From Candidatus Pseudothioglobus singularis PS1 (GTDB lineage Bacteria; Pseudomonadota; Gammaproteobacteria; PS1; Pseudothioglobaceae), in assembly GCF_001281385.1 (NCBI RefSeq), contig NZ_CP006911.1, forward strand, positions 186,001 to 250,000: a DNA stretch of 64,000 nt, given 5' to 3'. This document shows positions 1 through 11,130 of the stretch, piece by piece. How positions within the stretch are numbered: position 1 is the stretch's first letter; the number at the start of each line of letters is the position of its first letter. Made by a program: the position numbers and the translations under genes. The notes under the pieces were generated by a model. That model worked only from the letters and a program-made list of their open reading frames with translations, was not told the DNA's origin and made no database searches.

Positions 1-1
1 C

Positions 2-583
2 CTTATTCCTGCTTTAGTTTCTGGCCAGTTAAAGGCAAGGCCTGATAGTGATTTAAAGATTATTAGAATTTCACGTAATTTGGATACAGTAGAAATCTCA
101 AATCCTCAACAAAAACCACTTAATCGTTCATGTGCAACAAGACAGCTTGGTGACTACTGCGGTGGATCAAAATCAATTGCTCTTTTAGGGGTTAGCGATT
201 CAAGCTCCTTGGAGGAGTATGAATATTTAGTTGATAGTTTTGTTCGTTCTGCGCAACAACTTTCTTCATCTTTAGCTGGGCTAACAGAGCAAATACTTGA
301 TGGCTTGCCAGGCAAAAATATTAGTTTCTATCTTAGTGTAGATGTCGATGTTCTTTCAATTCCCTCTATTCGCTCTAACTCTCCATACCTTGGAACTGGG
401 CTGACACCAAAGCAGTTGACTTCACTCATTCTTGAATTAGGAAAACTGCCCATTATTGGTGCCGATGTAACCGGATACATACCAGATCTAGATATTTCTG
501 GGAGTGCAGCTAGTGTCACTGTTGTTGAAATTATTAGAAGTGTTATTGAAGCAATGTCTCAGGAGAGCGTCCTATGCCGTTGA
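2..583 (+). CDS. Ureohydrolase-family protein (arginase/agmatinase fold), 5' end cut by window
   Basis: The reading frame is open to the first bases of the window, so the N-terminal half is missing. What remains is the C-terminal half of an arginase/agmatinase-fold protein. It shows the metal-binding stretch SVDVDVL followed by a long loop and GTGLTP, matching the family pattern SxDxDxxDPxxxPGTG, except that the last Asp-Pro is replaced by Ser-Ile. The family's late 'VE.NP' substrate-binding Glu is not evident (the region reads ADVTGYIPDLD). The family hydrolyses guanidino compounds to urea plus an amine using two metal ions. The TTG at position 80 is only an internal codon, not a start. It overlaps the next paralogue by 10 nt, so the two are translationally coupled. 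Substrate unknown; activity cannot be judged without the N-terminal half. Confidence 0.8.
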   Translation, partial: LIPALVSGQLKARPDSDLKIIRISRNLDTVEISNPQQKPLNRSCATRQLGDYCGGSKSIALLGVSDSSSLEEYEYLVDSFVRSAQQLSSSLAGLTEQILDGLPGKNISFYLSVDVDVLSIPSIRSNSPYLGTGLTPKQLTSLILELGKLPIIGADVTGYIPDLDISGSAASVTVVEIIRSVIEAMSQESVLCR

Positions 584-1569
584 GAACTGCTCCATTACCT
601 CGTATGGCTGGCCATTTATCATTTATGAGATCAGTAAGGGCAAAGGTTGAAGACTTATCATCAGGAACGTTAGCAGTCATTGGTGTTCCAATGGAAGGTA
701 GTAAAAATCTTAAATCTGGTGCACGTTTTTCTCCCTTATCGATAAGAGAAACTTCAGTCTATTTTGGTTGGTATGCGAACCCACAATTTAGTAATCCAAT
801 CAACATTGATGAGCATGAGGTATTTGATACATCATCAATCAACGAGCGATTATTTGATCTTGGAGATATTCCAATTTTAGGGCAAACTAAATTAAAAGCT
901 GAAGAGCTTATTAATCATTCTATTGCACAAATATATAATCGTAATGCAACAAGTATTGTCCTTGGTGGGGATAGTAGCATTATTTCTCCTGTTTGCAGAG
1001 GTATTGCAAATGGAAAGTCTGCTGCATATATTCAAATTGGAGGGAAGACACCAGGCACTTCGAATATAAAGCTTGATCATCAATCTTCTGCGCCTCTTTG
1101 TTCTCTCTTGGCAAGTGGTGAAGTCAAGCTGGAAGATACATGTATTCTAGCCCCAGCTGAGAATCCATCTGTAGAATTTTTGAAGGAGCTATCAGGCGTT
1201 GGGGCAAAAATATTTTCATCAAGCCAACTTAAAGATATGAACTCTAAGGAGATTGCCGATTTAAGCCTAACATTATCGAACCGTGAGTTACCAGTAATCG
1301 TTAATCTGGATCTATCATCGGTATCTTCAGAGCTTCATGGTATGTCTGAACAGCCAATATTTAATGGAATGAGCCTAAAGTTGTTAAGGCAAGTGCTAGT
1401 CGCACTCGCTAGTGCACCAATAGCTACCTTAATTTTGACGGGTCATAACCCTACAATAAATGGACTAAGCGTTGTCAAAACTGGCCAGCGCCTAATTGTT
1501 ACTGCACTAGTTGGATACCTCTGTTCACGTCTTGGACTTATGAATGATTTCAACTCAAATGAAAATTAA
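574..1569 (+). CDS. Degenerate ureohydrolase paralogue, probable pseudoenzyme
   Basis: Full-length (331 aa) arginase-fold protein, recognisable by IVLGGDSS near residues 128-135 and the overall spacing of the family. The metal ligands are largely gone: GGDH reads GGDS (His to Ser134), the DAHxD motif reads IGGKTP around residues 155-160, and SxDxD reads NLDLS around 244-248 with one Asp left. The late 'VE.NP' segment reads LTGHNP. It is probably unable to bind the two-metal centre and may act as a structural or regulatory partner of the intact paralogue. It overlaps the preceding gene and is followed 22 nt later by the third paralogue. The reading frame is intact, so it is maintained as a protein and is not a decayed pseudogene. 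Confidence 0.8.
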   Translation: MPLRTAPLPRMAGHLSFMRSVRAKVEDLSSGTLAVIGVPMEGSKNLKSGARFSPLSIRETSVYFGWYANPQFSNPINIDEHEVFDTSSINERLFDLGDIPILGQTKLKAEELINHSIAQIYNRNATSIVLGGDSSIISPVCRGIANGKSAAYIQIGGKTPGTSNIKLDHQSSAPLCSLLASGEVKLEDTCILAPAENPSVEFLKELSGVGAKIFSSSQLKDMNSKEIADLSLTLSNRELPVIVNLDLSSVSSELHGMSEQPIFNGMSLKLLRQVLVALASAPIATLILTGHNPTINGLSVVKTGQRLIVTALVGYLCSRLGLMNDFNSNEN

Positions 1570-1591
1570 AAAAAGGAGCAAACTCTAACTT

Positions 1592-2578
1592 ATGTCAAAT
1601 TATCCAAAAATGAATCCCGTTGCTCGCTCTCTTTTTAGCGCACCACTTGGATCTCCAGAAGAGATTCAGTCTGGAACACTTGGGGTTGTGGGAATGCCAT
1701 CTGACTGGACACACTCAAGCCGTGTTGGAACTCGCTTTGGTCCAGATGCACTGAGGGCAGCAACTACAGAAATATCTAAATTGATGTCAAATGAACAAAC
1801 TGAATTTTTCGATCCTATTTTGAAAAATGTGCTTCGAAACCGTCAAGATAAATGGATTATTGATTGTGGTGATGCTGATATTTTTCCAGATTGTGTGGAA
1901 GATACGACTGAGTCTATTGCCTCAATGACACAAGCTATTACAGCTGCCGGGGGAATACCTCTTGCATTAGGCGGTGATCATTATAATGGTTATCCGGCAT
2001 GTCTTGGATATTCGCGAGGCCTTTTAAATCGTGATCCAAATCGAAAGTTTGGCTACATTCAGATTGATGGGCACTTAGATTTTACAAATCGTCTTGGAGC
2101 ATGGGGTACTCATAATCATGCCACTAATGGACGACGCATTTCTGAATTTTCTAATATTATTCAACCCAACATGGTATGGATTGGTATATCAGGTTGGATC
2201 GATGGGGGCGAATATGAGCTGATTAAAAGCATGGGTGGAAAGGTTTTCTCTTCTCAGGATGTTCATCGCCTAGGCGCTTCCAAGGTTATGGAGCTTGCCA
2301 TTAAACATGCAACAAGAGGGTGCGAAAGCCTTTATGTTTCTCTTTGCATTGATGCGATGGATGCTGGCTATTTACCTGGAACAGGTTCTGTTGTCCATAG
2401 TGGAATTACGCCAAGACAGTATTGCCAAATGCTTGATATCCTCTCAGAAGCGCCGTTTGATGGTTTGGACATTGTAGAAACTTGCCCCCCACTAGACCCA
2501 TCTGGACGCACAGAACAAATTGCGGGACACCTTCTCTTGCGAACTCTTCGCAGGCATATGTTTGAAATTAGTGAATAA
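1592..2578 (+). CDS. Ureohydrolase-family protein (agmatinase/guanidino-acid hydrolase type)
   Basis: 328 aa, the best preserved of the three paralogues. GGDHY lies at 127-131 (His130), and D159-G-H161-L-D163 corresponds to the family DAHxD motif. SLCIDAMD at 250-257 corresponds to SxDxDxxD, but the first metal-ligand Asp is Cys252 while Asp254 is kept. PGTG follows at 262-265 and GLDIVETCPPLDPS near 291-304 carries the substrate-binding Glu. Such enzymes release urea from agmatine, guanidinobutyrate, guanidinopropionate or guanidine, so this is likely the catalytic member of the operon although the Cys may alter the metal site. An AAAGGAG ribosome site precedes the ATG. The downstream ALDH fits conversion of an amine product to an acid, but the substrate is not known. 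Confidence 0.8.
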   Translation: MSNYPKMNPVARSLFSAPLGSPEEIQSGTLGVVGMPSDWTHSSRVGTRFGPDALRAATTEISKLMSNEQTEFFDPILKNVLRNRQDKWIIDCGDADIFPDCVEDTTESIASMTQAITAAGGIPLALGGDHYNGYPACLGYSRGLLNRDPNRKFGYIQIDGHLDFTNRLGAWGTHNHATNGRRISEFSNIIQPNMVWIGISGWIDGGEYELIKSMGGKVFSSQDVHRLGASKVMELAIKHATRGCESLYVSLCIDAMDAGYLPGTGSVVHSGITPRQYCQMLDILSEAPFDGLDIVETCPPLDPSGRTEQIAGHLLLRTLRRHMFEISE

Positions 2579-2586
2579 AACTAATT

Positions 2587-3297
2587 ATGCATATATTTGA
2601 AGGTATTAAATCTTTTGGGGCGTTATATCATGACAATGAGCCTCAACCTCTTCCATCTCGCCCATGGATTGTTGATTTCTCAATACTACAAAAACCTTTT
2701 GTGGGCATGGAGCCTGGCAATATTTCAGAGTTTGAACCCGCACCAGATTGGAGTCGATGGTGGTTAGGAGATACATCAAGCAACCCTAAAAATACCTTAA
2801 ACTGGGTTGTCCTTAAAGACACTATTAGGCGACTATATATTTGTGATCGCATGATTCTTGTCCGAGTTAGTTGGCAAGATTTATTTGATGCGGGGTATGT
2901 TGATGGAATTAAGCTGGTGATTGATGGGAAAACTTTCAAATGTCGTTTGATGTCTGGAGGGAGTGATTTTCATTTAGATAATGATGGCCTCAGTGGCGGA
3001 CATCCAGCTGATAATGAGTGGGATCGTTTTGTCTCAGGTCGAGAAAAAATTAAGGGACTTCCATCATTGACTTCCATTGATAAGACTGGAGTCTTAAGTG
3101 ATGAGGTGCTACAATCACCTCATAATCAATTCTGGAATTGGGTTGGTGCTGTTAGCTGGACTTCCACACCATATGTAAATCGAGATACTGCTCGCTGTTG
3201 TCGTGGTTATCAGGCTGGCCAATTTTTTTATTTAAACACCTATGATCATCGGCATGAGGATATCGGTTGGCGACCTATTTTAGAGGAATTACTATGA
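2587..3297 (+). CDS. Unrecognised 236-residue protein in the ureohydrolase operon
   Basis: I do not recognise the family. The protein is rich in Trp (WSRWW near residue 55, WNWVGAVSW near 200) and ends with a GWRPILEE motif. It has no signal peptide and no obvious membrane segment. The centre has Asp/Gly-rich stretches (SGGSDFHLDNDG) and a late CCRGY segment. It lies 8 nt after the third ureohydrolase, and its stop codon overlaps the ATG of the aldehyde dehydrogenase (ATGA), so it is part of the same transcription unit and is expected to serve the same pathway. An enzyme or a substrate-handling accessory are both possible. Confidence 0.75.
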   Translation: MHIFEGIKSFGALYHDNEPQPLPSRPWIVDFSILQKPFVGMEPGNISEFEPAPDWSRWWLGDTSSNPKNTLNWVVLKDTIRRLYICDRMILVRVSWQDLFDAGYVDGIKLVIDGKTFKCRLMSGGSDFHLDNDGLSGGHPADNEWDRFVSGREKIKGLPSLTSIDKTGVLSDEVLQSPHNQFWNWVGAVSWTSTPYVNRDTARCCRGYQAGQFFYLNTYDHRHEDIGWRPILEELL

Positions 3298-4787
3298 GTA
3301 ACCAAATTACCAATGAACAAGACATAAAACATAACTTCATTGCAGGTGAGTGGCGTTCTAGCTCAGAATATATGCAAAACATTAATCCATCGGATACTAA
3401 TGATGTAATCGCTACATACGCAACTGCAACTAGCAATGATGTTCAGGATGCTGTTTCAGCGGCAGTCTCTGCACTGCCACTTTGGTCATCCAGTACATCT
3501 GGGGAGAGGTTTGACATTCTCGATGCAATCGGTTCTGAGATTATTCAGCGCAAAGGTGAACTAGGCGATCTTCTTGCACGTGAAGAGGGAAAGACACTGA
3601 AAGAGGCCGTGGCAGAGGCTCATCGTGCGGGTAGTCTTTTTAAGTTTTTTGCAGCAGAGGTATATCGTTCAGAGTCAGAGGGTTATCGTTCTCTTCGTGA
3701 GGGTATATCACTTGAGATTCAGCGTGAACCAATCGGTGTAGTTGCAGCAATAACACCCTGGAACTTTCCATTGGCGATTCCTGCCTGGAAAATTGCGCCA
3801 GCACTTGCTTATGGTAATACTGTTGTTTTCAAACCTTCCGAACTAGTCTGCGGTTCTGCTTGGGCTCTTGCTGAGATTATTTCCCGGGCAGGTTTGCCAG
3901 ATGGAGTGTTTAATCTTCTAATGGGACAAGGAACAGAAACTGGTGCAGCATTAGTGGAACATCCAAATGTTGCAGGCGTTTCTTTTACTGGATCTTCAGT
4001 TGTTGGACGCAAGATTGGAGCTAGTGTATTTGCCCGAGGTGGCAAGATGCAACTAGAAATGGGTGGCAAGAATCCACTCATCGTGCTTGATGATGCTGAC
4101 CTAGAAAAAGCTGTTGAGTTTGCAATTAATGGTGCATTCTTTTCTGCTGGACAAAGATGTACCGCATCATCTCGTCTCATAGTAACTGAGAATATTCATG
4201 ATTCTTTTATTGATGCAATGTCAAAGCGTATGGAGCTTCTTAGGATTGGTGATGCCCGAAACCCAAAAACTGATATTGGTCCTGTTGTGAGTGAGGCTCA
4301 GCTTAAGAAAAACCTTGAATACCTTCGCATTGGTTTGAACGATGGTGCTAAGCACTTAATGGGTGGAGACCAGGTTGAACAGACAACACCTGGATGGTAT
4401 TTATCACCAGCACTTTTTATTAATGCTAAGAGCGAAATGAAAATTTGTCGTGAGGAAATATTTGGACCAATCGCTGCTGTAATTTCTGTGAGCGATTATG
4501 ACGAAGCACTCTCTGTAGCTAATGACTCTGAATTTGGCCTATCGGCAGGTATAGTTTCAAATGACCGCTTGATAATTGACCACTTCATAGATAATATTCA
4601 AGCTGGAATGGTACAAATTAATCTTCCAACTGCTGGTATGGATTTTCATGCACCAATAACTGGTCGAAAAAATTCATCATTTGGACCTCCTGAAAAGAGT
4701 AGTTATTGCCGAGAGTTTTTTACCAACACTAAGGTAATCCATGCAAATTATGGTAAACGCTTAAATTCTAAAAGGGAGGGCTCATGA
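3294..4787 (+). CDS. NAD(P)-dependent aldehyde dehydrogenase
   Basis: About 497 aa from the ATG at 3294, which overlaps the stop of the upstream gene (ATGA). An in-frame start 27 nt upstream is less likely. The full ALDH signature is present: TPWNFP near 154-159 (Asn157), the cofactor region FTGSS near 231, general base Glu255 in LEMGGK and nucleophile Cys289 in GQRCTAS. Sequence flavour resembles 2-oxoglutarate-semialdehyde/succinate-semialdehyde type dehydrogenases. In this operon it would oxidise the aldehyde formed after deamination of the amine released by the ureohydrolase, giving a carboxylic acid for the CoA-transferase encoded next (overlap ATGA at 4784). The substrate itself is inferred. 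Confidence 0.88.
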   Translation: MSNQITNEQDIKHNFIAGEWRSSSEYMQNINPSDTNDVIATYATATSNDVQDAVSAAVSALPLWSSSTSGERFDILDAIGSEIIQRKGELGDLLAREEGKTLKEAVAEAHRAGSLFKFFAAEVYRSESEGYRSLREGISLEIQREPIGVVAAITPWNFPLAIPAWKIAPALAYGNTVVFKPSELVCGSAWALAEIISRAGLPDGVFNLLMGQGTETGAALVEHPNVAGVSFTGSSVVGRKIGASVFARGGKMQLEMGGKNPLIVLDDADLEKAVEFAINGAFFSAGQRCTASSRLIVTENIHDSFIDAMSKRMELLRIGDARNPKTDIGPVVSEAQLKKNLEYLRIGLNDGAKHLMGGDQVEQTTPGWYLSPALFINAKSEMKICREEIFGPIAAVISVSDYDEALSVANDSEFGLSAGIVSNDRLIIDHFIDNIQAGMVQINLPTAGMDFHAPITGRKNSSFGPPEKSSYCREFFTNTKVIHANYGKRLNSKREGS

Positions 4788-5980
4788 AATCTTTAGAGGG
4801 CTATCGTGTACTTGATCTTTCAAATGTCCTTTCTGGTCCATTCTGTGCCTGTCAACTTGCACATCTTGGAGCAGAGGTAATAAAAATTGAATTGCCTGTA
4901 AGGGGTGACTTAGCAAGGCAATTGGGTTTGGATATTGAGCTGAATCAAAAACTTATGGGAGCTACTTTTCTTGCTCAAAATTCAGGCAAGCGCTCAATTA
5001 CTATTAATCTCAAATCTTCAGAAGGAATTAATTTATTTAAACGCCTTGTAGAAACTGCTGATGTAGTAGTTGAAAATTTCAGGCCAGGAGTCATGAATCG
5101 TCTTGGGGTTGGCTATGAAGTGCTTCGAGATTTGAATCCAGATCTAATTTATTGTGCAATATCAGGATTTGGTCAGGAAGGTGCTCTGAAGAGTCGACCA
5201 GCATATGATCAAATTATCCAGGGTATGTCAGGCACTATGAATATTACAGGTGATAAAGATTCAGCCCCTTTGAGGGTTGGTTATCCCATAGCTGATACAA
5301 TTGGCGGATTGACAGCTGCCTTCGCGATTTCAGCAGCACTTGCAAAACAAGGTGGCAACCGTGGTACCTTTATAGATGTTTCAATGTTGGAGTCTGTAAT
5401 GTGTACGATGGGTTTTCAGATTTCAAACTACTTTAATGCATATCAAGAACCTCAAGCGATGGGTAATGAGAATTTTACGAGTAGCCCATCTGGGACTTTT
5501 AAAACTAGCTCTGGACAGATCAACATTGCAGCAAATAAACAGGAACAGTTTGAAGCCACATGTCAAGTCCTAGGGCTTAATGAGTTACTTGAAAATCCTA
5601 AATTTGCTACTAGAGAGGCGCGTCTTGAAAATCGCTCAGAACTATCTGATATTCTCAACCTAACACTTATGACTCGATCTACGGATGAGTGGACTGAACT
5701 ATTAAATGATAAAGGAGTCCCTTGTGGTCCAATTTTGACTGTTCCAGAGGCTCTAGCTCAACCTCAGATTGCAGATCGAGGTATGGTTGGAACTTATAAT
5801 GATGTTCCAGGAGTAGGTCGTGATATTAAAATTACGCGAACCGGTATCAAGCTTGATGGAAATGCTCCAACTGTAGATAACCCACCTCCAATGCTTGGTG
5901 AACATACTGATGAGATTCTTGGTGAACTTGGTTTGACCGAAACTGAAATAAAAACGCTAAAAGAACAAAAAGCAATATGA
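4784..5980 (+). CDS. Class III CoA-transferase (CaiB/BaiF family)
   Basis: 398 aa, normal length for the family. The N-terminal GYRVLDLSNVLSGPFC, the ENFRPGVMNRLG block near 97-108 and RPAYDQIIQG near 138-147 identify a CaiB/BaiF (formyl-CoA transferase type) enzyme, and Asp142 is the expected catalytic aspartate that forms the acyl anhydride. These enzymes move CoA from a donor such as succinyl-CoA to a carboxylic acid. The start overlaps the ALDH stop and its own stop overlaps the start of the HMG-CoA-lyase gene, so acid activation is coupled to C-C cleavage in the next step. The acid could be a 3-hydroxy or branched dicarboxylate. Confidence 0.9.
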   Translation: MKSLEGYRVLDLSNVLSGPFCACQLAHLGAEVIKIELPVRGDLARQLGLDIELNQKLMGATFLAQNSGKRSITINLKSSEGINLFKRLVETADVVVENFRPGVMNRLGVGYEVLRDLNPDLIYCAISGFGQEGALKSRPAYDQIIQGMSGTMNITGDKDSAPLRVGYPIADTIGGLTAAFAISAALAKQGGNRGTFIDVSMLESVMCTMGFQISNYFNAYQEPQAMGNENFTSSPSGTFKTSSGQINIAANKQEQFEATCQVLGLNELLENPKFATREARLENRSELSDILNLTLMTRSTDEWTELLNDKGVPCGPILTVPEALAQPQIADRGMVGTYNDVPGVGRDIKITRTGIKLDGNAPTVDNPPPMLGEHTDEILGELGLTETEIKTLKEQKAI

Positions 5981-6894
5981 ATAAAATTGACATTGAAGTG
6001 AGTGAAGTTGGACCAAGAGATGGGTTGCAAAGTATCAGTCAAATTATGCCCACTGAGGCTAAAAAGCTCTGGATTAAAGCTTTGGCTTTAGCAGGCATTC
6101 CCGAGATAGAGGTCGGTTCATTTGTTCCAGTACGGATATTCCCACAGTTTGCTGACATGATGGAAGTCGCTCAGTATGCAAGAACTATTGAAGGACTCAA
6201 AGTGGCTGTTTTAGTTCCAAACTTGAAGGGAGCTGAGAATGCGATAAAGGCAGATGTCCATAAGCTTACAATTCCCATGTCAGTTAGTGAGACTCATAGT
6301 CTGCGAAATGTCAATCGAACGCATGAACAGATGTTGGACGAAGTGAAAAGTATAGTTAACCTAATTAGACAGCTACCTGTCGATGAAAGACCTGTTATTG
6401 AAGGTGCGCTTTCAACTGCTTTCGGTTGCACAATAGAGGGCAGTGTTCCAGAAGATCGAGTAGTGGAGTTAGCAGAAGCGTTAATGGAGGCTGGATGTGA
6501 TGAGGTAGGTCTTTCGGATACTACCGGATACGCAAATCCCGTGCAAGTTAAGCGTTTGATAGGGAAAGTCTGGACTGCCATTGGGCGCGAGCATCTTACA
6601 GGGATTCATTTGCACAATACACGTGGACAAGGATTGGCGAATGTTTTAGCTGCTGTGGAAGTAGGACTAACCACCATTGACTCATCTATGGGAGGTATTG
6701 GTGGATGCCCAGCAGCACCAGGTGCCAGCGGTAATATTGTTACTGAGGATTTGGTTTTCTTATTAGAGGCAATGGGGCTAAAAACAGGTATTGATTTTGA
6801 TAAGCTCATGGCCGCTAGAAATGTCGTTGCAACAGCGCTACCAGATGTTGAATTGTATGGTTTTACACCGGATGCTGGTTTACCTCTTAGCTAA
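5977..6894 (+). CDS. Hydroxymethylglutaryl-CoA lyase-type enzyme
   Basis: 305 aa TIM-barrel of the HMGL-like family. It begins with the EVGPRDGLQ motif (Asp15 near the metal site), has HLHNTRGQ near 210 carrying the metal-binding histidines, and the diagnostic active-site loop GGCPAAPGASGNIVTED near 243-259. The family cleaves 3-hydroxy-3-methyl acyl-CoA esters such as HMG-CoA or citramalyl-type esters to acetyl-CoA and a keto product. Overlap with the CoA-transferase indicates that the transferase makes the CoA ester and this lyase splits it. Leucine-type HMG-CoA cleavage is possible, but no other leucine-catabolism gene is nearby, so a dedicated route is as likely. Confidence 0.88.
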   Translation: MNKIDIEVSEVGPRDGLQSISQIMPTEAKKLWIKALALAGIPEIEVGSFVPVRIFPQFADMMEVAQYARTIEGLKVAVLVPNLKGAENAIKADVHKLTIPMSVSETHSLRNVNRTHEQMLDEVKSIVNLIRQLPVDERPVIEGALSTAFGCTIEGSVPEDRVVELAEALMEAGCDEVGLSDTTGYANPVQVKRLIGKVWTAIGREHLTGIHLHNTRGQGLANVLAAVEVGLTTIDSSMGGIGGCPAAPGASGNIVTEDLVFLLEAMGLKTGIDFDKLMAARNVVATALPDVELYGFTPDAGLPLS

Positions 6895-7141: not shown

Positions 7142-9559
7142 TTACGAGCGAAGTTTTTCATTGTCGTTGTCGTATGCAGCATTCATAGAGACATGGCATT
7201 TTCGACTTCCTAAAGAGGTTTCTACTCTGAGAGTCTTTCCTTCAGAGCAGTGACTCGGATTGAGGTAGGCAAATGCGACACTATGGCTAACTCTATAGCC
7301 ATAAGCTCCACTGGTAATGATTCCAGATAGTTCATCACCATCAAACACAGCCTCATTTCCAAAACACTCGGCTGGAATCTCATCATCAAAGATCAGATAG
7401 GCTAGCTGAGTTTCTACCCCTTTTGATTGGCGTTCTTTAATATTATCAGAGCCAATAAAATTACGACTCAGATCTAAGAACCTGTCCATTCCTGCTTCGA
7501 GCGCAGATATCTCTTCGGTAAACTCAGCGCCATATGCTCTATACATTTTCTCAAGTCTCATGCTGTTAAAAGCTTGACCACCAAAATCTCTTATCCCGAA
7601 AGGGGAGCCCATTTCAAATAAAGATTCATAGATGGAGATTAACTGCCAGCTTGGCATATGGAGCTCCCACCCCAGCTCTCCAGCATAAGAAACGCGCATT
7701 GCAAAAACGTCTGCTGAGTCGATTTTAATGGTTTTACAGCTTAGCCAAGAAAACCCAGTATTGCTAAGATCTTCCTGAGTACATTGGCTTAAAACATTTC
7801 TGGCTTCAGGGCCAGTCAATAAAAGTCCGCCCCATTCCTCAGTTAAGTTTTCAATCGTTACATCGAGTTCACCGACGTGCCATTCAAGCCACTGATAATC
7901 TTTGACTTCAGATCCAATGGCGCCCATTAATAGAAATTCTTCTTGACTAATACGACTAATCGTTTGCTCCGCCCTTATACCTCCATTCGGAGCATGAAAA
8001 AGTGTCAAACCAATTCTTCCATCCTTTGCAGGCAGTTTGTTGCAAGACAATTTGTCAAGAAAATCAAAGGCATCTTTACCAGTGATTCTAAATTTTGCTG
8101 TGCCACTAATGTCGGTAACGCCGCAAGAGTCTTGAACTGCTTTGCACTCCTCTTTGATGGCTTCATGTGCTTCAGTGTGAGCCCAGGATAAGGTTTCACC
8201 CCTGATCTCATCTGTTGCAAACCAAGATGGCTTTTCAAAGCCTGTATTGACTGTATGAATTGCACCTTTTTGGACTAAGACTGTGTGCAGAGGGCTCACC
8301 CTGATAGGCCTGCCATGTGGGCGATTATCATTGGGCGCCGCGTAGGCATACATGCGTTCATAGGACTCAATGGCTCTCGTTGTGCAGTAATTTTTATCTG
8401 CCCACGTGTCAAATCTTCGACTATCAAGAGAGGACATATTGAGCTCTGTTTGACCATGAACCATCCACTGCGCTAAATACTTTCCTATCCCGCCTTGAGC
8501 AATACCAATACTAGCACCACAAAGATTCCAAAAGTTTTTGAGACCTTTCGCGGGTCCAACAAGAAGATTATCATCAGGTGTGTGAGTAATGAGGCCATTG
8601 ATCACTGTACTAATTCCTACCTCCTTGAAGAGAGGAAAAATATCCATGCATCTTTCCAGCCAAGGCATCAGTCTTTCTAAGTCTCCTTCAAAGAGCTCCC
8701 TGTCAAATGACCAGTCGACGCCTTCCAGAGCCCATGGCTTAGAGCCTCTGGTTTCGTAAGGACCAATTAAGAAGCCACTCCCTTCTTGCCTAATATAGGA
8801 GGCTGCAATTGAATCTCGAGTCACCGGAAGTTCTTTAGTGAGTGCGGCAATTTCTGGATGGCTATCAGTTATTAAGTACTGATGCTGAAGATTGACTAAA
8901 GGCACATATGATCCAACCATCGCTCCAACTTGAGGTGAAAAACAACCACCAGCATTGACGACGTGCTGGGCAATGATATTTCCTTGCTCTGTTATAACTT
9001 CGTATTCTCCAGAAGGAAGAATATTGATATCAGTAACCCTGTTAAAGTTGCTCACCTCTGCCCCAGCCTTTTTAGCCAGTTGAGCTAGTTGAGTGACAAC
9101 TGTTGTGGGATCTACATGACCATCATTTGGGGTGTATAAGATGTTTCTCGCACTGCTAAAATCCATCATTGGATTGATGATTGATGCTTCTTCTTTTGAA
9201 ACAAAATGCATTTCACAGCCAATATGGTTTGCGCGACTGATTATATTATTAAACCACTGCTCCTCAACCTCAGTATGACCCACTCGTAGGGATCCTGTTT
9301 TATGGAATGATGAAGGGAGCCCTGTTTTTTCAGGCAGAATTTCATCATACAACTTGATGGTGTACTCATGAATATTAGAGAGCGTATGGTTTCCGTTAAA
9401 GTTTGGACATAAACCGGCAGCGTGCCAGGTAGAGCCACTTGTGAGTTCACCTTTTTCAATTAAAACAACATCTGTCCATCCCTCTAGACCTAGGTGATAC
9501 ATTAGGTTAACTCCTAATGACCCACCACCAATGATTACAACTTGTGCATGTGACTTCAT
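7142..9559 (-). CDS. FAD-dependent dimethylglycine/sarcosine dehydrogenase-like protein
   Basis: 805 aa, the usual length for the DMGDH/SDH family. The N-terminal Rossmann motif VVIIGGGSLG (8-17) is followed by SGSTWHAAGL, in which His46 is the family's covalent FAD attachment site. The DAO domain covers about residues 5-365, a linker (FAO_M) about 370-430, and a glycine-cleavage-T-like tetrahydrofolate domain about 435-800 with the IRDFGGQAFNSMRLEK segment. Members N-demethylate methylated glycines and pass the C1 unit to tetrahydrofolate. It sits 14 nt downstream of an MttB-family methyltransferase on the same strand, which suggests stepwise demethylation of a quaternary or tertiary amine such as glycine betaine. 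Exact substrate not determined. Confidence 0.85.
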   Translation of the reverse strand: MKSHAQVVIIGGGSLGVNLMYHLGLEGWTDVVLIEKGELTSGSTWHAAGLCPNFNGNHTLSNIHEYTIKLYDEILPEKTGLPSSFHKTGSLRVGHTEVEEQWFNNIISRANHIGCEMHFVSKEEASIINPMMDFSSARNILYTPNDGHVDPTTVVTQLAQLAKKAGAEVSNFNRVTDINILPSGEYEVITEQGNIIAQHVVNAGGCFSPQVGAMVGSYVPLVNLQHQYLITDSHPEIAALTKELPVTRDSIAASYIRQEGSGFLIGPYETRGSKPWALEGVDWSFDRELFEGDLERLMPWLERCMDIFPLFKEVGISTVINGLITHTPDDNLLVGPAKGLKNFWNLCGASIGIAQGGIGKYLAQWMVHGQTELNMSSLDSRRFDTWADKNYCTTRAIESYERMYAYAAPNDNRPHGRPIRVSPLHTVLVQKGAIHTVNTGFEKPSWFATDEIRGETLSWAHTEAHEAIKEECKAVQDSCGVTDISGTAKFRITGKDAFDFLDKLSCNKLPAKDGRIGLTLFHAPNGGIRAEQTISRISQEEFLLMGAIGSEVKDYQWLEWHVGELDVTIENLTEEWGGLLLTGPEARNVLSQCTQEDLSNTGFSWLSCKTIKIDSADVFAMRVSYAGELGWELHMPSWQLISIYESLFEMGSPFGIRDFGGQAFNSMRLEKMYRAYGAEFTEEISALEAGMDRFLDLSRNFIGSDNIKERQSKGVETQLAYLIFDDEIPAECFGNEAVFDGDELSGIITSGAYGYRVSHSVAFAYLNPSHCSEGKTLRVETSLGSRKCHVSMNAAYDNDNEKLRS

Positions 9560-9573
9560 ATTAATGACCTTTT

Positions 9574-11130
9574 CTATAGAGGCTTGCGACCAATCTCTTT
9601 TCTAGTTAATTTAATATTGAACTTGTCGCGTATTTTTTTATCCACAGCATCACTGACATGACCTGGAAAATATTCTGACAATATTTCTTTTTTTTGCTGA
9701 ATTGCTTTTTCTAAAATAATGGGTTTTCCCATATCTGCCCAATCATTTGGGCTGTCTCTATCGCTGAGCTCGGGGTAGATGTATTCACTTTGCATAACAT
9801 CAATAGTTTGATCTGAGCCAAGATAGTGAGCTTTGTCATTCAAACAAACATCTTTAATAGTTTCAAAGCAAAGCGACTCTTCACTGTCGTCACTAAATCC
9901 TTTGGTCATTCTCATAGAGGCGCCCAGTAAATCATTGTCTAAAAGCAAACTTTCTGGACATGTTCCAAGGAGGCTCGCATACATACCTGCAGATTCATAA
10001 ACAATATTCGCACCAGCGATTGCAGTCACTGCATGCGTTGAAGCCCTCTCAGAACCGGCCTGAAAGTCAGGAAATTTTGAGTCTGTCATTCCTGCTGGCG
10101 TTCCCGTTGGCAGATTAAAGTGATTGCCCATTTGCGCGCATGCAGCAGAAATTAATCCTTGCTCTGGAGAGCCGCCACACATTGAGCCAGTTCTTAGATC
10201 GGAGACAAACGGCCAAGTACCTAAAATAGCTGGAGCGCCCGGCTTAATTGCATTCACATAAACGAGTCCTCCGAGGCATTCAGCCCAGGCTTGAGATACT
10301 ACTCCTGGAAGTAATGGCGGCGCTGTAGCACCAGCCTGGCCAGCAGACAGAAGTAATATTGGCATACCACCCTCAACTCCAACGCGGACACATTCTAATG
10401 ACTCTTCTGCAAATTTCATTGGCGGTACTACGTGACAGTTGCTCATGCTTACAAAGGGTCTCTCCCTCCATTTCTCTTCACTTCCAGCAATAATATGAAG
10501 CATTTCGAGGGCATCAGTCACATGCTTAGATTCAGTAAAACTAACGCCAGCGTGTTTTTCAGTTCCCATTGCTACGCAGTAGACTGAGTTTTGATCCATC
10601 TCACGAGGACTGGCAATATCCCTAAGAACGCAGGTACGCTGAAACATATGAATATGCTCACATTGGTCAGCTATCCTTGCCATATCATACAAGTCTTGAC
10701 TTTCAGATTCTCTGTATTCGTTATTTTCAGGATCTGCAATGAGTACGGCTGCGCCAGCAGTTGAAAAATGAACTCTTGAGCCGCTCAGATCAAGGTCATG
10801 TTTTGGTGATTGGCCAAAAAGAGTTAGGTTTCTTTGTGATAGATTGATCGCCTTATCAACAATCTCTCTTGACATTCTCAATCTGCCATCATCACCTAAA
10901 GTGGCGCCAAACTCGACACACTTTTCTATGCAGTGGGGTGTTGCATCTCCAAACCCAATCTCCTCAAGAATGCGATAAATGTTGGCTTCGATTGCTGTAA
11001 CTTGCTTTTCACTAAGTGGCTTGTATCTGCCGCCTATTTCTCCAGCTTTGACCGGTTTTTCTTCTTCTGTTAGAGGCGCATTTCTTAATGCGATCCTGGC
11101 TTCTCTTCCACCCGATTTTCTTCTAGACAT
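9574..11130 (-). CDS. Trimethylamine methyltransferase (MttB) superfamily protein, non-pyrrolysine type
   Basis: 518 aa MttB-superfamily TIM-barrel methyltransferase. The frame runs through without an in-frame UAG, so this is not the pyrrolysine-containing archaeal MttB but the non-Pyl branch, whose studied members (MtgB, MtpB, MtcB) transfer a methyl group from glycine betaine, proline betaine or carnitine to a corrinoid protein. No corrinoid protein gene (MttC-like, DxHxxG) is visible in the window. The conserved glycine-rich centre, with AGQAGATAPPLLPG near 275 and CGGSPEQGL near 320, is present. First gene of the - strand unit with the DMGDH-like enzyme, which supports a role in methylated-amine use. 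Confidence 0.8.
   Translation of the reverse strand: MSRRKSGGREARIALRNAPLTEEEKPVKAGEIGGRYKPLSEKQVTAIEANIYRILEEIGFGDATPHCIEKCVEFGATLGDDGRLRMSREIVDKAINLSQRNLTLFGQSPKHDLDLSGSRVHFSTAGAAVLIADPENNEYRESESQDLYDMARIADQCEHIHMFQRTCVLRDIASPREMDQNSVYCVAMGTEKHAGVSFTESKHVTDALEMLHIIAGSEEKWRERPFVSMSNCHVVPPMKFAEESLECVRVGVEGGMPILLLSAGQAGATAPPLLPGVVSQAWAECLGGLVYVNAIKPGAPAILGTWPFVSDLRTGSMCGGSPEQGLISAACAQMGNHFNLPTGTPAGMTDSKFPDFQAGSERASTHAVTAIAGANIVYESAGMYASLLGTCPESLLLDNDLLGASMRMTKGFSDDSEESLCFETIKDVCLNDKAHYLGSDQTIDVMQSEYIYPELSDRDSPNDWADMGKPIILEKAIQQKKEILSEYFPGHVSDAVDKKIRDKFNIKLTRKEIGRKPL

Follow-up and report, generated by a model that had tools for sequence, protein, structure and literature searches.

Why would an open-ocean bacterium keep a row of arginase-fold genes, most of which have lost the residues that bind metal? 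The question is raised by the start of a 64,000-nucleotide stretch of the Candidatus Pseudothioglobus singularis PS1 chromosome (here termed the window; G000:C1:186001-250000, part of a single-contig genome of 1.71 Mb). The original prediction, drawn from the window, described three tandem, coupled ureohydrolase paralogues and suggested that they could form a hetero-oligomer of catalytic and regulatory chains, or an enzyme with a changed metal preference. Heteromeric ureohydrolases with a pseudo-subunit have been described only recently, as alpha/beta pairs associated with man-made or methylated guanidines. Here, we focus on the gene set, its active-site residues and its distribution. Sequence comparison shows a real, conserved and co-inherited set of four paralogues, which are best read as a heteromeric ureohydrolase-like enzyme of a new variant type.

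Four paralogues at the head of an eight-gene block

A search with PF00491 finds six arginase-family genes in the genome, four in tandem (184.7-188.6 kb) and two as single genes elsewhere. Two of the tandem matches lie just upstream of or across the window start (U1, 184776-185615; U2, 185738-186544, contig coordinates). The genes are thus adjacent, coupled and located as predicted, but they number four (table 1), and what was taken for the first member of a trio is only the 3′ portion of U2. Because the window starts inside U2 and after U1, the truncated view concealed the degeneracy of both. All four proteins exceed the 22-bit cut-off and so belong to the superfamily (104, 88, 54 and 188 bits for U1, U2, U3 and U4; E = 2.3e-14 for U3 and 3.3e-55 for U4), with U1-U3 sharing 20-24% identity with U4. 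The predicted model of U3 is of low confidence (pLDDT 60) and was used for fold assignment only; it matches agmatinases in Foldseek down to E = 8e-15, and the 50 listed matches are all of the arginase family, metformin hydrolase chains included. On this model, the arginase fold is kept in U3.

Table 1. Features of the locus; positions are those of the window unless a contig coordinate is given.
Feature	Position	Strand	Remarks
U1, first arginase-fold paralogue	G000:C1:184686-185645, just before U2		319 aa
U2, second arginase-fold paralogue	1..583, 3′ part only	+	full gene G000:C1:185648-186583, 311 aa
U3, most degenerate arginase-fold paralogue	574..1569	+	331 aa; 10 nt overlap with U2
U3 Ser134 codon, replaces GGDH metal-ligand His	973..975	+	Cys in Fram Strait orthologue
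U4, presumed catalytic paralogue	1592..2578	+	328 aa
U4 Cys252 codon TGC, at bridging metal-ligand Asp (Asp232 of arginase I)	2345..2347	+	
U5, DGR variable (C-type-lectin-fold) domain homologue	2587..3297	+	236 aa
Aldehyde dehydrogenase of block	3294..4787	+	PF00171
CoA-transferase of block, CaiB/BaiF-type (family III)	4784..5980	+	
HMG-CoA-lyase-like enzyme of block	5977..6894	+	above PRK05692 cut-off

The order of the block (U1, U2, U3, U4, U5, aldehyde dehydrogenase, CoA-transferase, HMG-CoA lyase) is identical in the four genomes found to carry it, and the spacing is constant in all four: U2 and U3 overlap by 10 nt, U3 and U4 are separated by 22 nt and U4 and U5 by 8 nt. A polyamine-type ABC transporter lies upstream of the block in all four genomes, and a divergent IclR regulator is present in the three loci that extend far enough. 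An Rfam search of the operon gave no riboswitch and no other match, while promoter and terminator scans of the operon gave scores not above those of shuffles.

Two further features flank the operon. Upstream are two genes for PotD-like solute-binding proteins (G000:C1:178627-179685 and 180661-181719; L007 4627-5685 and 6661-7719), which form a mosaic: the 5′-terminal 128 nt or so and a central segment of about 230 nt are identical or nearly so and the remainder differs (75% overall), a pattern that gene conversion would be expected to leave. Other loci that extend to the PotD-like genes have one copy only. Beside the block, the minus strand (window 7142-11130) encodes a dimethylglycine/sarcosine-dehydrogenase-like flavoprotein with DAO and GCV_T domains, and a trimethylamine-methyltransferase-like protein recognised by eye, suggesting the use of methylated amines.

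Graded loss of the metal site

The dinuclear site of the family is built from six ligands, taken here in the order His, Asp-His-Asp, Asp, Asp (HDHDDD). At these positions U1 has G-S-R-D-D-G (two of six kept), U2 has Y-S-N-D-D-D (three), U3 has S-G-K-P-D-S (one) and U4 has H-D-H-D-C-D (five), such that none of the four has an intact six-ligand site. The motifs first reported for the two genes lying wholly within the window were confirmed: U3 reads GGDS, IGGKTP and NLDLS in an intact frame, and U4 keeps GGDH and DGHLD and has Cys252 where the SxDxD motif has its first Asp. A catalytic-type His176 and a substrate-binding Glu296 are present in U4, and neither occurs in U1-U3. The full HDHDDD set is found in 68 of the 68 other arginase-family proteins collected, a sample that is biased to high scorers and gives no true base rate; position 252 of U4 is Asp in every one of these and Cys in all four U4 orthologues. 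Ligand states are the same across the four carrier genomes, with the single exception of U3 Ser134, a position at which the orthologue from Fram Strait has Cys. Because these states recur in four genomes, one of them distant, are held under purifying selection and contrast with intact sites in all 68 other proteins, they are not due to chance.

Columns within four positions of the metal ligands are 81-90% invariant, against 63-76% elsewhere in U1-U3, and in every paralogue, degenerate ones included, the near-ligand regions are more conserved than the remainder. This pattern reflects the conserved fold core too, and does not by itself prove a role in the pocket.

The residues of U4 make a changed or single metal plausible. 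Its retained Asp, His and Asp correspond to the residues that hold a single zinc in HDAC-type enzymes of the arginase fold. The Asp232Cys laboratory variant of arginase I, in which the ligand change is the same, is reportedly weakened in metal binding and activity; that variant is man-made, whereas the cysteine of U4 is natural and conserved in four species. With one of six ligands gone, even U4 may be inactive or mononuclear. Alternatively, none of the four would be a hydrolase, and together they would bind a cationic metabolite, or act as its scaffold, on behalf of the transporter or of the enzymes downstream. No chain has the HDHDDD set seen in all 68 relatives, and a search of the genome gave no urease that could use urea, both of which fit such a role; U4, however, is the most constrained of the four and retains five ligands along with its catalytic His and Glu, and the genome's two ordinary arginase-family proteins would likewise release urea without a urease. 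We therefore regard a purely non-catalytic complex as improbable.

Distribution, selection and transfer

The set is carried by three of 29 genomes of the genus, and separate searches with U3 and U4 found the same three: the window genome, AG-390-E17 (CACDVH010000007.1) and Candidatus Thioglobus REDSEA-S12_B1 (LURN01000017.1). A fourth copy of the set, on an 895 kb contig of an uncultured 'Pseudomonadales' gammaproteobacterial MAG from Fram Strait, came from a scan of contigs with peptide patterns, narrow enough that distant relatives would escape. When 83 family, 369 class and 399 phylum genomes were searched with U4, nothing turned up beyond the three Thioglobus-group carriers, 145 relatives of the Fram Strait MAG included no further carrier, and viral contigs contained no relatives of U4. 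Among the genomes examined the set is all-or-none: U1-U4 occur in the same order in all four carriers, and no genome was found with one of the genes alone.

Between species, dN/dS is mostly 0.07-0.08 for U4, 0.10-0.14 for U3 and 0.15-0.21 for U1 and U2; the closest pair, AG-390-E17 and REDSEA, gives higher values (0.13-0.33) at a small dS. With ratios between species of mostly 0.07-0.21, U1-U4 are not decaying. U1-U3 might otherwise be taken for decaying duplicates heading for loss, given that most of their metal ligands are gone and that U1 and U2 evolve faster than U4. Yet their frames are intact in four genomes, their dN/dS between species is mostly 0.10-0.21, a distant lineage has the same residue states, and U3 is more constrained than U1 or U2. 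Selection and shared residue states together rule out a pseudogene reading, to which we assign next to no weight; nor does the recent decay once considered for the most degenerate gene apply, since U3 has a dN/dS of mostly 0.10-0.14 and residue states common to a distant lineage.

Comparison with the Fram Strait genome separates the block from its surroundings. From U1 to HMG-CoA lyase dS is about 0.5-1.3, whereas the transporter genes are mostly saturated in dS, with a protein identity of 64-76%. On these distances, the eight-gene block moved between lineages as a unit, and the transporter genes have a different history; transfer as a unit argues that the genes of the block act together. Phylogenetically, the Fram Strait copies of U1 and U2 are sister to those of the window (99/100 support). 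Branches are long and there is no clear deep order of U1-U4, but the stem of U4 (1.39, compared with 3.2-4.1 for U1-U3) makes it much the least divergent.

This low divergence would suit a U4 that works by itself through a modified metal site (e.g. mononuclear or Zn/Fe-type, with the Asp-His...Asp set of HDAC-family enzymes), U1-U3 being separate regulatory or binding proteins. The retained His, Glu and five ligands agree with such an arrangement, as does the failure to find HypA in the genome, which makes the nickel route used by metformin hydrolase less likely. All-or-none presence, conserved overlaps and the co-transfer of four genes nonetheless favour an obligate partnership, and a stand-alone U4 is in our view unlikely.

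A separate observation concerns the Fram Strait MAG, in which a Cas9-looking ORF follows the transferred block at a distance of a few kb (locus L046 18012-20987); it has an N-terminal GLDLGSNSLGWAL and an arginine-rich helix, and was recognised by eye only.

A fixed relative of phage variable proteins

U5, which travels with U1-U4 in the block, has no significant match in Pfam or NCBIfam and matches PHROG 36643 (E = 2.5e-50). It is homologous to the variable proteins of phage diversity-generating retroelements (DGR) of the Mushu type, the closest of which are about 37-40% identical to U5 along almost its entire length; the protein of Faecalibacterium phage Mushu, which lies beside a reverse transcriptase, is 37% identical over all of U5. 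The Mushu template repeat has the accessory gene on one side and the reverse transcriptase on the other, and matches the C-terminal part of the domain at 88%. Among the 22 viral homologues that match most of U5, 17 have a repeat of the variable segment some 2 kb upstream, with 79-89% identity and with mismatches mostly at template adenines.

No template repeat was found near the four bacterial U5 loci, where the best candidate reaches 46% identity, and the window's genome gave no match to a reverse transcriptase (RVT_1). The segment that varies in the phage proteins is fixed in U5, in which residues 202-233 are the most conserved part (28 of 32 invariant, against 128 of 201 before it). The predicted model of U5 is confident (pLDDT 91.8) and its fold matches are weak (E of 0.05 or more), the best being mostly a DGR variable protein, formylglycine-generating enzymes, EgtB and PvdO; as modelled, the fold is C-type-lectin/FGE-like. 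A role of U5 as a formylglycine-generating-type oxidase acting on Cys252 was considered and is at most speculative, given the weakness of these fold matches. A fixed relative of a phage hypermutation target is an unexpected member of a catabolic block.

A proposed heteromeric hydrolase

We propose, with a probability of about 0.6, that U1-U4 are subunits of one heteromeric arginase-fold hydrolase, in which U4 is catalytic and U1-U3 are pseudo-subunits. This division of roles is based on the precedent of metformin hydrolase and on the ligand losses of U1-U3, which fall in the range of MetCb-like chains. U4 would contain a metal centre with cysteine in place of one bridging aspartate, and U1-U3 would complete the oligomer and shape or cap the U4 pocket, as MetCb/MefH-beta does in metformin hydrolase. 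The complex would hydrolyse a C-N bond in some cationic substrate taken up by the cell, either a guanidino or a polyamine-like compound and probably not agmatine; a different cationic compound is likely because the upstream transporter is of the polyamine type and a separate canonical agmatinase (P0006) is found in the genome beside polyamine-catabolism genes. The cleavage product would be oxidised by the aldehyde dehydrogenase, the resulting acid converted to a CoA ester by the CoA-transferase and the ester split by the HMG-CoA-lyase-like enzyme, an order that we infer from family assignments only. Ordinary degradation of agmatine or arginine was rejected, since the canonical agmatinase and polyamine genes are elsewhere and U1-U4 fall under the family cut-offs.

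The idea of a hetero-oligomer of catalytic and regulatory chains is thus well supported, if indirectly, by all-or-none presence, close spacing, conservation, purifying selection, co-transfer and the existence of known pseudo-subunit enzymes (PMC11399263, PMC11271267), although it has to accommodate four genes, and four different chains do not fit simply into the trimer or hexamer first envisaged. The sole described architecture, a two-chain alpha/beta enzyme (PMC11399263, PMC11271267), would instead suggest two independent heteromeric pairs with jobs of their own, e.g. U3-U4 and U1-U2. However, a plausible catalytic site is missing from both U1 and U2, all four genes are kept and moved together, and the overlap joins U2 to U3 across the supposed pairs, which leaves two pairs as a decidedly poor prospect. 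As the same genes are present in a distantly related bacterium, the four arginase-fold genes and their four partner genes probably work as one unusual multi-part enzyme. Its full form, a four-chain arginase-fold enzyme (one catalytic chain and three pseudo-subunits) with a cysteine-containing metal centre, U5 as a lectin-fold partner akin to the hypermutated receptor-binding domains of phages, and an eight-gene catabolic module for a cationic compound that passes between bacteria, is offered tentatively. If true, the recruitment of pseudo-subunits in the arginase fold extends beyond what is known, and into open-ocean bacteria; the conserved cysteine at a metal-ligand position would be new metal-site chemistry, and the four-paralogue set would point to a form of dissolved nitrogen in seawater that has so far gone unrecognised.

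Comparison with known ureohydrolases

The original prediction knew of no three-subunit ureohydrolase, and none was found here; alpha/beta enzymes that are encoded by two genes and include a pseudo-subunit have been described before. No description of the present gene cluster was found in the open-licence literature. Among single-chain enzymes, agmatinase, guanidinobutyrase and guanidinopropionase have the PF00491 fold in common with U1-U4, and their catalytic His and Glu also occur in U4. None of U1-U4 reaches the NCBIfam cut-offs for agmatinase, arginase or formimidoylglutamase: U4 scores 102 against 174.3 (TIGR01230) and 111.9 against 302 (PRK02190), and U1-U3 score lower. Guanidinase-type 'agmatinase 2' sequences match U4 better (E = 2.9e-28) than metformin hydrolase chains do (best E = 5e-15). 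The guanidine hydrolases of Synechocystis (7esr) and Nitrospira (9fek) are the solved structures that match U4 best, and they are also among the few that match U3; they are single-sequence entries with Asp at the position of the U4 cysteine. Plasmid and haloarchaeal matches of up to 33.5% identity were set aside, those inspected being six-ligand proteins. Paired genes on alphaproteobacterial plasmids (Chelatococcus, Salipiger) are both intact and so represent a different system.

These two plasmids (L052, L053) have a gene order in common, comprising a LysR regulator, an agmatinase-like gene, an amino-acid ABC transporter, a second arginase-family gene and a urea-carboxylase-associated gene, with all six ligands in both arginase-family proteins.

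Metformin/dimethylguanidine hydrolase is an alpha2beta4 hexamer in which metal is bound by alpha only; beta has lost four of six ligands, its N-terminus caps the alpha active site, and neither chain is active alone (PMC11399263, PMC11271267). MefH, MetCaCb, MfmAB and DmgH are each encoded by two genes, with a six-ligand, dinickel alpha chain and hypAB nearby (PMC11399263, PMC11271267, PMC11647477). The genome studied here has no match to HypA (PF01155), which makes a nickel enzyme like MefH less likely, and no hypAB was seen among the neighbouring genes. Common to these hydrolases and U1-U4 are adjacent arginase-fold genes, low identity within the set, one chain with catalytic residues and partners with lost ligands; chains active only together have been demonstrated for the known enzymes. 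In MetCb-like chains three to five ligands are changed, the same range as in U2 (three lost), U1 (four) and U3 (five). The six-ligand catalytic chain of MetCaCb/MefH has no counterpart, as U4 has Cys at one ligand. Unlike the two-gene metformin hydrolases, the present set combines four genes, three types of pseudo-subunit and a cysteine at the bridging-aspartate position of U4, in a genome without a HypA match.
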